64,000 nt of DNA, taken from Anaerolineales bacterium. Its GTDB lineage: Bacteria; Chloroflexota; Anaerolineae; Aggregatilineales; UBA2796. The notes beneath the pieces are model-generated. The model worked only from the letters and a program-made list of their open reading frames with translations, did not search any database and was not told the origin of the DNA. How positions within the stretch are numbered: the first letter of the stretch is position 1; each line of letters opens with the position of its first letter. The stretch covers positions 62,001 to 126,000 of the forward strand of contig JABTTZ010000003.1 in NCBI GenBank assembly GCA_015075625.1, in the 5' to 3' direction. Below, one piece after another: positions 49,320 through 54,385 of this stretch. The translations under genes and the position numbers were made by a program.

Positions 49320-51017
49320 ATGGCGGAGATGATCCCCACCGAATGTCACCCCGACACGGCGAGTTATGCGGAGAAAACGCTCTTTCCCATCTTTCAGAAA
49401 GGGCTGGACTCAACGTTCATCGTCTTTCATGGAGCGGCACTGCAAGCGGTGAACACCGCACAAGGGGGGGTGAATGACCGCGAGATCGACTTTCTGATCG
49501 CCCATCCTCAACACGGACTGTTGGCGCTTGAAGTGAAGGGTGGGCAGATTAGGGTGGAACGCGGGCAGTGGCGGCAAAACGGCAACCCGATGCGGAAAAC
49601 CCCGATCAAGCAGGTGAAACAAGCCACCTATGACCTCCACGCCCACCTGAAAAAAGCCCCCCAAACAAAATCCTTCCACTACCCGCTGTGGTATGGGGTC
49701 GCCTTCCCCGATGTCGATGTGGAGGGCGATCTGGGGACGGATGCCCCTCGTGTGATCATCCTTGACAAGCGCGATTGCCGCTCCGATGCCCTCCAAGAGA
49801 CCCTTGTGGCGATATACCAGCATTACGTAAAAACGGAGGACACCTCCCCCGGCGAAGCGGGGATCGCTGCCCTCGTGAGCCTTCTTGCGCCAAGCTATAC
49901 ACTCCGTTCCCTGTTAACAAAGGATTTCGAGGATGAGGCAGCGCGGATCAAGGTTCTGACAGAAGAACAATATGAGGTGTTGGAAGAACACCTTGCCAAA
50001 AACACGAATTACCTGATCACCGGCGTTGCCGGGTCGGGCAAGACGATGCTGGCGATGGAACATGCCTCCCGTTTGGCAAAGGCGGGCAAGCGCGTCCTGT
50101 TCACCTGTTTCAACCGCGCCCTCATGGAATGGCTGCGCCACACCTACCCAAGCGAGGCAGCCATCCAGATCACAAATTTTCATGATCTGTGCGCCACCTT
50201 TCCACCCAAATATGGCATTCCTGTTCCCAACCATTCAGAGGCAATGGAGAAAGCGGGGATCAGCCAACAGGATTATTTTCAAGGAATTTTGCCGCAAAAG
50301 CTGAGCGATGCCGCCGAAAAAATGCCCGATGCGGATCGCTTTGATGCCATTCTGGTTGATGAGGGGCAGGATTTTCGACAGACGTATTGGACGCCGCTGA
50401 TGATGCTTTTGAAAGACCGCAGCGCCAGCCATTTTTACATTTTTTGCGACGACAGCCAGACCCTTTATGGACGGCACACCTTCCCTTTTGAAGCGCCCAC
50501 CTACCACCTGAAGAAAAATCTGCGTAACACGCGCCCCATTGGGGAGCGCGTCGGAAAGTTCCACCGAGGGAAGGGGGACTATCGGGCGGCGGGACCGGAT
50601 TCGGTGAATGTTGTCCAAATCCGTGAGGGGAAGGATCAACGCGCCCTCCTTGCCGATGCTCTCGCCACCCTAAAACGGGAGCAGATTCCCGCCCACCATA
50701 TTGTCTTGCTCACCCCGCTGCGCGGGCAAAGCCAATGGAAAGAGGGCGAGACGGTAGGCGGCTTCACCCTCCGCTGGCGTGGCGCAGAGGGACTGCCCAC
50801 CGCAGAGGGGGTGGAGACGATCTCCGTCCAGACAATCCAGAGCTTCAAAGGGCTGGAACGCCCCGTCGTGATCGTCTCTGAACTGCGCCGCGCCATTCAT
50901 ATGTACAAAGAACCAGAAACCTACGAAAACCTTGTCTATGTGGCGCTCTCGCGGGCAAAACATTACCTCATCGTGATCGGCGGACTGCCCGCGTGGACGA
51001 ATAATCCGCCCCTCTGA
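49320..51017 (+). CDS. NERD-domain / superfamily 1 DNA helicase-like protein
   Basis: A 565-residue protein. Residues 10-125 are a NERD nuclease-related domain (VNDREIDFLIAHP...LLALEVKGG). It is joined to an SF1 helicase-like ATPase: Walker A GVAGSGKT (to Thr242), Walker B LVDEGQDF and the C-terminal VQTIQSFKGLE and YVALSRAKHYLIV motifs of UvrD-like helicases. The NERD domain likely acts in nucleic-acid processing. It begins 8 bases after potC, but no functional link is clear; some NERD helicases occur in defence contexts. Confidence 0.85.
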   Translation: MAEMIPTECHPDTASYAEKTLFPIFQKGLDSTFIVFHGAALQAVNTAQGGVNDREIDFLIAHPQHGLLALEVKGGQIRVERGQWRQNGNPMRKTPIKQVKQATYDLHAHLKKAPQTKSFHYPLWYGVAFPDVDVEGDLGTDAPRVIILDKRDCRSDALQETLVAIYQHYVKTEDTSPGEAGIAALVSLLAPSYTLRSLLTKDFEDEAARIKVLTEEQYEVLEEHLAKNTNYLITGVAGSGKTMLAMEHASRLAKAGKRVLFTCFNRALMEWLRHTYPSEAAIQITNFHDLCATFPPKYGIPVPNHSEAMEKAGISQQDYFQGILPQKLSDAAEKMPDADRFDAILVDEGQDFRQTYWTPLMMLLKDRSASHFYIFCDDSQTLYGRHTFPFEAPTYHLKKNLRNTRPIGERVGKFHRGKGDYRAAGPDSVNVVQIREGKDQRALLADALATLKREQIPAHHIVLLTPLRGQSQWKEGETVGGFTLRWRGAEGLPTAEGVETISVQTIQSFKGLERPVVIVSELRRAIHMYKEPETYENLVYVALSRAKHYLIVIGGLPAWTNNPPL

Positions 51018-51077: not shown

Positions 51078-52202
51078 TTAATACGGTTGATTCTGTTGAA
51101 ACTCAATCACAGTGACATTCTCATCGCAGCCAGAGCGCGTTTGGACACTCACCTTGTCGGAGATGGGCGCACCTGTTGAGCCGATTAACTGGACAGTGTA
51201 ATCCTCTACGATGGGGATCGGATTCACAAAGGTATTGAAACTCCCATCACCAAGCGTTGCCGTTTTGCCAACAACCTCAATCGTATCGATGCGCGGTTGG
51301 ACAGAGGTAATCCGCACGGCAAGCGGTTTACTTCCCACATTGAAGGGCTGCCCATCCAGATTCAAAATGACCCCGGCAATGCTCTGCCAGCGGCAGGCTT
51401 CCGTCCCGCTGTGCGGTTGGTAGCGAATAGCCCCAACGGTGAAGGGGAACGGCGCGGGGGTAAAACGCGGCGTCACGGTGGGGGGCAGGGCAAGCGTGGC
51501 AGATGATTCCGTCGCGGGGGGTTCGTCGGTTGCCCCTCCGCCCACCACAGGGGTATTCGTGACCGTTGGAGTGGCGGTGGGGGTGATTGTCGGGGTTTCG
51601 GTGGGCGTTGCCGTCGGGATCGTCGGCGTTGGCGGTTCAGGGGTGAAGCTCGCCGTTGGTGTCAGCGTTGGGGGGAAAGTTGCCAAGACGAGGATCGGTG
51701 GGTAGGTTGCCACAGGGAGGGGGTTCAACGGCGAACGCGGGTTGGCGATCAGCAGAATGGTGTAGGCGATCACCCCCACCGTCAGCAGCAAAAATATCGC
51801 CGTGATCATATCGGCACAACCGCCCCCACGCCGAACGGGAGCGCTGTATTCAGCATATTCCGGGGCAGCCACGTCTGGCGCTGGGCGCCGCCGTCGGCGT
51901 GAGGGAAGTGGCGCTACCGGAACGTCGGGCGGATCAATGATCTCGAAGGGCGGCTGTTCTTCAGCGGGAGACTCATCATCGCCCTCATCGGCTGCTGTGG
52001 GCAGGGGGGGGCGACGGCGGCGGGAACGGCGGGACCGCGCAGCACTGTCCTGTTCGGCGTCGTCAAAGGCGCTGCGTGGCTCGTTTGGCTCGGACGGGTG
52101 TGGCGGCTTGCGGCGTGTGCCAGCAGGCAGCGGCAGTTTCTCAGAGAGATCGTCGTAATCGTCTCCCCCATCAGCAGGGGGAAGGGTTGGGTTAGTCGTC
52201 AT
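51078..52202 (-). CDS. Membrane protein with cytosolic basic region, Pro/Thr stalk and C-terminal beta domain (family member 1)
   Basis: A 374-residue protein of an unrecognised family. Residues 1-125 are polar, rich in Asp/Pro/Arg. One membrane span follows (MITAIFLLLTVGVIAYTILLIA), then a Thr/Pro low-complexity stalk (SFTPEPPTPTIPTATPTETP), then a 110-residue C-terminal domain with EACRWQSIAGVILNLDGQPF and SGCDENVTVIEFQQ. The last two blocks recur in the next gene. The stalk suggests a surface display role. It is transcribed with the next two genes; gap 9 bases. Confidence 0.7.
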   Translation of the reverse strand: MTTNPTLPPADGGDDYDDLSEKLPLPAGTRRKPPHPSEPNEPRSAFDDAEQDSAARSRRSRRRRPPLPTAADEGDDESPAEEQPPFEIIDPPDVPVAPLPSRRRRRPAPDVAAPEYAEYSAPVRRGGGCADMITAIFLLLTVGVIAYTILLIANPRSPLNPLPVATYPPILVLATFPPTLTPTASFTPEPPTPTIPTATPTETPTITPTATPTVTNTPVVGGGATDEPPATESSATLALPPTVTPRFTPAPFPFTVGAIRYQPHSGTEACRWQSIAGVILNLDGQPFNVGSKPLAVRITSVQPRIDTIEVVGKTATLGDGSFNTFVNPIPIVEDYTVQLIGSTGAPISDKVSVQTRSGCDENVTVIEFQQNQPY

Positions 52203-52211
52203 AAAAGCCCC

Positions 52212-53102
52212 TTAGAATGGGCGTAGCTGAACAAAATGAACACGCGCCACATTTGTATCACACGTTCCGCGAAAATCAACGAGGATACGGGGCGTCAGGA
52301 TGCCCCCCTCGGCAGAGCGCAGTTCAACGGCATATTGCCCCCGCATGGCGCGGCGTCCCACCGGCACAACCCACCCCAAAAAGGTATCGGTATCAATGGG
52401 GACGCTCATAGAGAATCCTTCCGCTCCGGTGATCAGCACATAAACACCTGTGTCGGTGGTCAGCCGTTCCCCTTGTAAGCCATAGACAAGCCCGCTCAGG
52501 GCTTGGTAACGGCAGCCCTCTACCCCATCATGCGGGGTAAAGAGCGGCGCATCGGGCGCCGGGGCAAAGGGGAAGGCATAGGTGGGCGTGGGGCTTGGCG
52601 GCGTTGTCGTCGGTGTTGGGGAAGGACCGGGCGTGTGGCTGGCGGTGGGCGTGGGGCGGAAAATACTGCGCGTGGGGGCGGGTGTGCGGGTGGGACGCGG
52701 CGTGTTTGTCAGGGTGGGTGTCTCAGTGGGGAGCGGTGTCTCGGTGGGCGTTGGCGTCTCGGTGATCGTTGGTGCGCCGGGGGGGAGCAGCGTTTCGGTA
52801 AAGGTGGGGAGCAGTGTCACCGGAAGATTCGTCGGCGTGATCGTATTCGTGGGCGTATCTGTCGGGGTGGCAGTGGGGGTTTCAGTGGGTGTGGCAGAGG
52901 GGGTGTGGCTGGCGGTAGGCGTCACGGTAGGCAGGGCAAGGACGACAATCGACGTAGGAGTCTGCGGGGCAAACAGGGCGGGGGGGGGAATCACCTTCCC
53001 CACCACCAGCGCCGTCCCTACCGCTACTACTGCGGTCAGGCTGAGCAGGATCAGCGTGATCAGATTCAGGCAGCCCGTCCAGCAGCCGCTTCGCTTTCGC
53101 AT
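52212..53102 (-). CDS. Membrane/stalk/beta-domain protein (family member 2)
   Basis: A 296-residue paralog of the neighbouring protein without the long cytosolic part. Near the N-terminus is a membrane span ([23 protein letters not shown]), then a long Thr/Pro stalk with many TPTETPT units, then the same C-terminal domain with [20 protein letters not shown] and [14 protein letters not shown]. Two Cys are conserved between the paralogs and could form a disulfide. I do not know the domain. Confidence 0.72.
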
Positions 53103-53134
53103 TGACGTGCTTCCCGAAATACGGATAGAGCCAC

Positions 53135-53440
53135 TCAGCCGTTCGGCGTCCCCGTCCCACTGGGCGCACCTTCCTCAACGGGTGTGCGCGAAGGCGTCGC
53201 CGTCTCGGTGGGGGTGAAAGTTGCCGTTGGGGGTAGCGTGGCGCTAGGGGTAGCGGTGGGTGTCTCGGTGGGCAAGACCACCGTCGCCGGAATGGTCGAA
53301 TTGTAGGGCGCAAAGAGCGCCGGCGGCTTGATCACATTGACCAAGAGCAAAATCGAACACAGGCAAATAAAGACGGTCAGCCCGATGAAGACCAACGTCA
53401 CTGTGTTGTAGAACCCATCGTTCCCGGATCGTGCCGTCAT
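53135..53440 (-). CDS. Short membrane/stalk protein without the C-terminal domain (family member 3)
   Basis: A 101-residue protein with one membrane span ([24 protein letters not shown]), the shared [20 protein letters not shown] segment also found as [11 protein letters not shown] in member 2, and a Thr/Pro stalk that ends without the beta domain. It may be a truncated paralog or a separate short form; the ending SGTGTPNG stays in frame to a normal stop. Confidence 0.65.
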
Positions 53441-53473
53441 CGAACCCCGCCCCCTTGTGTATGCGTGTGTGTG

Positions 53474-54385
53474 CTAAATAAACCGCTCAATCTGCGCTTT
53501 GGTGACGAGGGCTTGCAGCCACGCCTCAAAAGCCGTCTCGCTCAGGCGAAAACATGTTTCCTGATCGATAGGACGATCTGACGCCCGTTCAAGCGTCTGG
53601 ATGATATGATAACCCAACTCGCTCTTTACGGGGGCGCTGAATGTATTCATTGGTTGGGTAAAGGCGGTATCTTCCACAATGGGTTGAAGCAACTGCCCCC
53701 GCGCAAACCAACCAAGATCGCCGCCCACGTCGCGCGTCGTCACGTCCAACGAGAACTGCCTTGCTAGGGCAACAAAATCGCCGCCCTTCATCAGTTGATC
53801 GTACAATGCTTTCGCCACACTTTCCTCTAGAACGAGGATATGCCGCGCCCGAACTTGCTCCACCGCAAGGCAGGTGTTCGCTGTGACAACATCGCGCATT
53901 TTTTGGGTGATCAGCGCCGAGCGCAAAACGCCCCGAAAATCGTCCTCGCTAAGGCGATCCGCCGCCAACTGTGCCAGCCAGTTTTCGCGGTTTCCGGCAA
54001 TACCGACCATCACGGCGATTTCGGCGTCCACTTCCGCCTCCGTCACTGTAATCTGCTGAATGGCTGCCGCTTGCTCAATCAACACCTGCTGGATGAGCGT
54101 CTCTAGGACAATAGCGCGAAAGGCGGGGAGATCAAGGGGCGGCGCTTCTCCGGCGAAACTTAAGCCTTCCAAACGCCGATTCGTCTCGTGATCGAGGGTG
54201 GACATCAAAATTGCTTGTCCGTTCACCGTTGCCGCAACGGGATCAGGTGTCCCTTGCGCCGCCGCCAAACGAGGATAGCCCACAATGGACACAGCGAGAA
54301 GAAACATCCCCACCCCAATCACGGCGCGGGTTAGGAAACGAACGGTCAAGGCTGAGGCTGCGATTCGGTAAAGGGTGAGATTCAA
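53474..54385 (-). CDS. Extracytoplasmic parvulin-type peptidyl-prolyl isomerase (PrsA/SurA-like)
   Basis: A 303-residue exported protein: signal/anchor (VGMFLLAVSIVGYPRLAAAQG), a SurA-N-like helical domain (NGQAILMSTLDHETNR), and a parvulin domain with RARHILVLEES, GGDLGWFARGQL and ELGYHIIQTLER. Parvulins help fold secreted proteins, and the proline-rich stalk proteins encoded right after it are plausible clients (inference from position). It is the first gene of that four-gene minus-strand run. Confidence 0.85.
   Translation of the reverse strand: MNLTLYRIAASALTVRFLTRAVIGVGMFLLAVSIVGYPRLAAAQGTPDPVAATVNGQAILMSTLDHETNRRLEGLSFAGEAPPLDLPAFRAIVLETLIQQVLIEQAAAIQQITVTEAEVDAEIAVMVGIAGNRENWLAQLAADRLSEDDFRGVLRSALITQKMRDVVTANTCLAVEQVRARHILVLEESVAKALYDQLMKGGDFVALARQFSLDVTTRDVGGDLGWFARGQLLQPIVEDTAFTQPMNTFSAPVKSELGYHIIQTLERASDRPIDQETCFRLSETAFEAWLQALVTKAQIERFI

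Follow-up and report, generated by a model that had tools for sequence, protein, structure and literature searches.

What is a secreted foldase doing at the head of a run of genes for proline-rich stalk proteins, and which part of those proteins, if any, does it serve? The question is raised by four adjacent genes on the minus strand (54385-51078) of a 64,000-nucleotide stretch of contig JABTTZ010000003.1, from an Anaerolineales bacterium, a stretch that we call the window. In order, they encode a parvulin-type peptidyl-prolyl isomerase of 303 amino acids (aa) with a TTG start (53474..54385) and proteins of 101, 296 and 374 aa, with intergenic gaps of 33, 32 and 9 bases. All three proteins behind the parvulin contain a single hydrophobic span and, C-terminal to it, a region rich in Thr and Pro, hereafter the stalk; the 296-aa and 374-aa proteins end in a homologous C-terminal domain, hereafter the head, which the 101-aa protein lacks. 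This anatomy, with the parvulin as first gene, had been recognised in a sequence-only reading of the window and is confirmed in each respect by our analysis. We find that the parvulin is linked to anchored stalks in many orders of the window's class, and that the linkage follows the stalk and not the head.

We sampled 61 genomes of the window's order (its own and 60 relatives), calling heads at E <= 0.01 and parvulin orthologs at >= 260 bits. The head was found in 53/61 genomes, mostly as a tandem pair, and the parvulin ortholog in 54/61; 51 genomes have both, 3 the parvulin only, 2 the head only and 5 neither (Fisher p = 1.8e-4, to be taken as a guide only since the genomes are related). In each of the three genomes with the parvulin only, that gene lies at the end of its contig, and in two of these the beginning of a stalk gene can still be read. 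Of the 54 ortholog loci inspected, four have fewer than 500 bases downstream (G008, G015, G040, G048); at 49 of the 50 that remain, a gene encoding a membrane span and Thr/Pro stalk follows the parvulin, the exception being G029. As controls, a stalk gene follows a longer, paralogous parvulin at 0/18 loci and random genes in the fetched loci in 7/501 cases (Fisher p = 1.5e-15 and 3e-61, respectively, with kinship ignored).

The same arrangement extends beyond the window's order, where we examined 28 loci with strong heads and left out seven weaker or differently built matches at similar E-values. Upstream sequence is readable at 25 of these loci, and a parvulin lies upstream at all 25, directly at 17 and behind one further gene at 8. 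A phylum sample contributed 14 further loci from 11 genomes, 11 of which have a parvulin upstream; the three without it encode heads of the lipoprotein type and come from f58 genomes, which carry a parvulin-linked copy as well. Head matches occur in 24/251 genomes of the phylum sample at E <= 1e-9, every one of them in the window's class, and in 86/199 genomes of the class sample at E <= 1e-5, many of the weaker class matches probably being ordinary carboxypeptidase-regulatory-like domains.

Within these loci, gene content indicates that the parvulin goes with the membrane-anchored stalk and not with the head, because headless stalks alone can accompany it, heads in other architectures do so at none of the loci examined, and the head can be exchanged. 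In two genomes (G002, G006) the sole stalk gene behind the parvulin encodes a headless protein of 96/97 aa, and the single headed gene sits elsewhere in the genome. Where the head occurs in SH3, solute-binding or other proteins, a parvulin is present at 0/12 loci (3.4-15 kb each, some near contig ends). In family f28, the slot of the window's headless gene holds a protein whose anchor and stalk are of the same kind but whose head is a different one, which the 74-sequence head profile does not recognise and for which Pfam returns zero matches; this protein occurs in 5/5 of the sampled f28 genomes, with a weak match in one more of the 199 class genomes.

We therefore favour, at a probability of roughly 55%, a foldase-coupled cell-surface display operon in which the parvulin handles newly exported Thr/Pro stalks. 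The PrsA-like parvulin, usually a lipoprotein, would sit on the outer face of the membrane, and the stalk proteins would be single-pass, with the N-terminus inside and the C-terminus outside. The constant unit would be a homologous membrane anchor and a Thr/Pro stalk of ~80-140 residues, bearing in most cases a small beta-sandwich head, presumably disulphide-tied, that is duplicated (the two paralogs of the window's order), replaced (f28) or lost (the headless genes). An extended chain measures roughly 0.3 nm per residue, at which an 80-140-residue stalk could reach 25-40 nm, enough for the head to emerge beyond the wall if the cell has a single membrane. By isomerising proline bonds of the stalk, the co-operonic parvulin would hold it in an extended state, safe from proteases, during its passage across the wall, and the heads might then bind something outside the cell. 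The Chloroflexi envelope is described as single-membrane (PMC5481317), and PrsA foldases are described as acting at the membrane-wall interface, with the surface protein ActA among the clients of Listeria PrsA2 (PMC3921577). The architecture suits a display protein, and the sequence-only proposal of a foldase serving the stalks agrees with its persistence beside headless stalks; that it helps them, and that they display anything, we infer. A broader claim, which we advance tentatively and with less confidence, is that of a class-wide display platform in which foldase and anchored Thr/Pro stalk are constant and the head is optional and exchangeable, the isomerase being partnered with a disordered Pro-rich spacer and not with a folded domain. 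We did not find an operon of this kind described in the open-access literature searched, mostly seen as listings and abstracts, and it is probably undescribed so far.

Several points weigh against the favoured reading. The window's parvulin has no lipobox cysteine, and at G029, within the window's order, parvulin and head lie at separate loci. The case for co-transcription of the four genes is their spacing, because a promoter scan of the locus returned zero promoter-like sites (terminator-like sites were fewer than in shuffles). The Thr/Pro stalks themselves are probably disordered or polyproline-like, and such chains may have no need of a foldase. The parvulin is also distributed more widely than the stalk, being present in 132/199 genomes of the class sample at E <= 1e-40. 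Among 40 parvulin loci from class families mostly without a strong head, four are too short to read (L185, L186, L192, L196, although the start of a stalk gene is visible in L192), and the expectation that a stalk always comes next failed: a stalk gene starts within 500 bases at only 3/37 loci with at least 500 bases downstream. An anchored stalk lies within 1.8 kb at 13/36 loci with at least 1500 bases downstream, at 10 of them behind a gene for a membrane/TPR-like protein of ~440 aa, and the other 23/36 have zero stalk genes in that range; these 23 include L216, L218 and L219, where automatic stalk calls at a greater distance were set aside as resembling ordinary signal peptides or a lipoprotein with a Pro/Thr stretch behind them. 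Because the parvulin is carried by so many genomes and so many of its loci have no stalk, it is not a dedicated foldase everywhere. The linkage for which the sequence-only reading had proposed a survey is thus stronger than could be told from the sequence alone, but not exclusive: anchored stalks with a strong head are accompanied by the parvulin, whereas a parvulin can stand without any stalk.

These stalk-less loci are the starting point of the main rival, in which the parvulin assists export in general and belongs to an old housekeeping neighbourhood, and the stalk genes share its promoter only as fellow envelope genes, without being its specific clients. In much of the class the parvulin stands without stalks beside genes such as those for a CbiA/ParA-type ATPase, a metallo-beta-lactamase-fold protein, a TP_methylase (RsmI-like) and a KaiC-like ATPase, and in some genomes of the window's order genes of the TP_methylase-like and KaiC-like types come after the stalk genes. 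However, the linkage of parvulin and stalk holds across many orders while other neighbours change; where the operon was split, in G002 and G006, the parvulin retained the headless stalk; and the paralogous parvulin is found beside a stalk at 0/18 loci. We consider this rival unlikely on balance, though it is the one to be taken most seriously.

Two features of these neighbourhoods deserve separate mention. A homologous, single-span, TPR-like protein of ~440 aa (weak TPR match in one case) intervenes between parvulin and stalk in ten class families, with instances at L094 (4027-5394), L115 (6382-7638), L187, L188, L189, L190, L198, L204, L207, L209, L210 and L213; in f13 and f14, too, it occupies the space between the two genes. 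Downstream of stalk genes, genes for a KaiC-like ATPase and an RsmI-like methylase are found repeatedly (L051, L057, L061, L065, L069 and others); the parvulins of f41 and f11 are directly followed by genes of these types, a hint that the neighbourhood is older.

The headless gene of the window (53135..53440, minus strand) encodes a short N-terminus, one membrane span, a PPALFAP segment and a Thr/Pro tail. Counterparts are found in 10/11 f1 genomes (G004 has none, and in G008 the contig ends within the gene), in six f4 genomes (G013, G020, G026, G031, G049, G056) and in two f8 genomes (G046, G057). Anchors of the f1 headless proteins are closest to one another, those of f4 to one another or to f4 first genes, and those of f8 to the first headed gene of their own or a sister genome, so the head has probably been lost at least three times independently, from anchors of the first-gene type. 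Domain loss, which the sequence-only reading had proposed as a means of diversification, is therefore real and recurrent. Among four f1 genomes the ratio of nonsynonymous to synonymous substitution rates (dN/dS) is 0.11-0.19 in the membrane block and 0.13-0.31 in the tail, values that are qualitative since dS exceeds 1 in most pairs; because they are low, we regard the f1 headless genes as under purifying selection, as genes and not debris.

Selected, recurrent headless forms are also what would be expected if the stalk proteins were structural, that is, spacers or tethers from the membrane to the wall or an S-layer, with heads as attachment points and headless forms as a brush. Stalk lengths, too, are fairly narrow, with a median of 117 residues for first headed genes (interquartile range 108-127, 41 rows), 99 for second genes (87-115, 43 rows) and 83 for single genes. 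Against this, Pfam finds no wall-binding or S-layer domain in the four window genes, and a weak structural match to an archaeal S-layer protein (Z = 7.9) does not rise above noise. We find a structural role doubtful.

That the parvulin serves the heads, by assisting the folding of a disulphide beta-sandwich, and not the stalk is more improbable still: most linked stalk proteins do carry a head, and heads contain prolines, but in G002 and G006 the parvulin stands alone with a headless stalk, and neither the 12 loci of heads in SH3, solute-binding and other proteins nor the 3 lipoprotein-type loci have an adjoining parvulin. Least credible, and hardly to be expected, is that the proteins are transmembrane receptors sensing outside through the head and signalling inside through the N-terminal tail, as the single span and long charged tail of the window's 374-aa protein might suggest, since the cytoplasmic-side tail varies from about 10 to over 200 residues among stalk proteins, Pfam finds no domain in that of the window protein, and no neighbour other than parvulin and stalk genes is constant.

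The two headed proteins share one plan. In the first (296 aa, 52212..53102, minus strand), a membrane span at residues 15-33, placed at the hydropathy maximum (53004..53060), is followed by a stalk of 143 residues with 57% T+P (52575..53003) and a head of 120 residues (52215..52574). The second (374 aa, 51078..52202, minus strand) has a long charged N-terminal tail ahead of its span at residues 135-153 (51744..51800), then an NP-rich juxtamembrane segment, NPRSPLNPLPV, a stalk of 98 residues with 52% T+P (51450..51743) and a head of 123 residues (51081..51449). The heads are homologous to each other (BLASTP E = 2e-14, 27% identity over 128 columns) and contain the blocks that the sequence-only reading had named, CRWQSI / CRYQAL and CDENV / CDTNV. 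Conservation of these blocks is far beyond chance, because four columns, C19, G26, C108 and N111, are invariant in an alignment of 74 relatives; both cysteines are present in 74/74, and 73/74 have exactly two. Pfam at E <= 1 assigns no family to any of the three window stalk proteins, heads included, and NCBIfam gives only weak matches to them, far under their cut-offs. CarboxypepD_reg (PF13620) is weakly matched by 22/74 head relatives (best E = 6e-7) and by neither window headed protein, even at E <= 1.

AlphaFold2 models of both heads are confident (mean pLDDT 95.9 for the 374-aa protein and 95.8 for the 296-aa protein) and resemble prealbumin-like beta-sandwiches. In the model of the 374-aa head, the cysteines lie in short turns directly ahead of the second and last strands, and a C19-C108 disulphide is likely. 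Structural alignment places both heads near transthyretin, carboxypeptidase D and the CNA-B type domains from TIE and CnaB2. The 374-aa head aligns with 6fwv at Z = 8.9 (2.7 A over 85 residues) and with CnaB2 8bdw at Z = 8.1 (2.8 A over 87), and the 296-aa head with 6fwv at Z = 7.8 (2.6 A over 83); the CNA-B-type scores (8.9/8.1 and 7.8/7.1, respectively) are near the level reachable by common arrangement alone, and identity in these rows is 5-13%. Foldseek with the head returned nothing under E = 0.001, and a profile search of Protein Data Bank (PDB) sequences nothing under E = 0.03. Lysine, which the Lys-Asn/Asp isopeptide bond of CNA-B domains requires, occurs in at most 7/74 sequences in any column of the head alignment. 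On these models the head looks like a divergent version of a fold already known, the prealbumin/CNA-B/carboxypeptidase-regulatory beta-sandwich, without the CNA-B isopeptide lysine. The sequence-only description of the post-stalk domain as unrecognised holds as far as Pfam family assignment goes; the novel fold that would have borne out its proposal is not supported.

A separate candidate function finds no support. Hydroxyisourate hydrolase, an enzyme of the transthyretin fold, has the C-terminal sequence YRGS, which is neither among the eight commonest head endings listed (NRPF, NHPY, NHAY, TRPF and similar) nor at the ends of the window heads, which terminate in NQPY and LRPF. As to the settings in which the head occurs elsewhere, f5 genomes encode secreted SH3_3-domain proteins with the same head (L078 5191-8653, in tandem; L079, L080, L082), and the head is also fused to a bacterial solute-binding protein (L085 796-2313) and, in another genome, to a larger protein of repeat-like build that contains a Thr/Pro stretch (L139 995-2734).

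A quick tree of 145 heads resolves two broad groups by gene position, imperfectly, with 8 label changes for first genes and 7 for second genes; the main group of first genes does not include those of f3 and f7. An early duplication of the headed stalk gene is likely. The juxtamembrane motif NPx(3-5)NP[FLI]xP (first residue N or D) is present in 33/43 second genes, 0/44 first genes and 9/23 single-copy stalks of other orders, a distribution suggesting that of the two headed genes the second is nearer the ancestral state.

The window's parvulin has one rotamase domain (Pfam Rotamase_3, E = 9e-19) and a SurA-like N-domain (SurA_N_3, E = 6e-16), and among PDB sequences it matches PrsA chains (E = 1e-16 to 1.5e-11) and SurA (2e-18). 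H168 and H246, which we take to be the two histidines of the rotamase site, are unchanged across 24 orthologs. An N-terminal hydrophobic segment supports its secretion. A lipobox-like motif is found in 82/88 parvulins at these loci, the window copy being among the 88, and two of the six failures are contig cuts; because the window copy lacks it, we call that protein PrsA-like and not PrsA. Parvulins of 10/11 f1 genomes have a matched pair of cysteines, one ahead of RHIL and one near the C-terminus; the f1 genome without the pair, G004, is also the sole one without the headless gene. Around the run, lysA is the upstream neighbour on the same strand, and downstream, convergent with the stalk genes, lies a gene (49320-51017, plus strand) whose 565-aa product combines a NERD nuclease part with a UvrD-like helicase part (Pfam).

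Sludge, sediments and digesters harbour Chloroflexota in abundance, yet little is known of the surface proteins of these bacteria; a compact, conserved operon offers a target to look for on their surfaces. Genomes in which a headless Thr/Pro stalk is the parvulin's only neighbouring client provide a natural test, separating a foldase that folds a domain from one that handles a proline-rich linker.

Compared with known systems, the parvulin is most like the PrsA type (e.g. Listeria PrsA2) in its SurA-like N-domain, single rotamase domain, predicted secretion and, at most loci, lipobox-like motif; the window copy differs in lacking that motif and in being encoded beside its putative clients, an arrangement not described for PrsA in the passages of PMC3921577 consulted. 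The modelled heads resemble, in beta-sandwich arrangement, the CNA-B/prealbumin-like (transthyretin-fold) domains of Gram-positive pili and adhesins, but with two invariant cysteines in place of a conserved isopeptide lysine and at the low identity given above. The carboxypeptidase regulatory-like domain shares weak similarity with some head relatives, whereas the window proteins are unmatched and no peptidase link is seen for the heads. Finally, the Pro-rich wall-spanning regions of Gram-positive surface proteins likewise separate the exposed domain from its anchor by a long run rich in Pro, but the stalks of the window are anchored by an N-terminal span and not by a C-terminal sortase signal.

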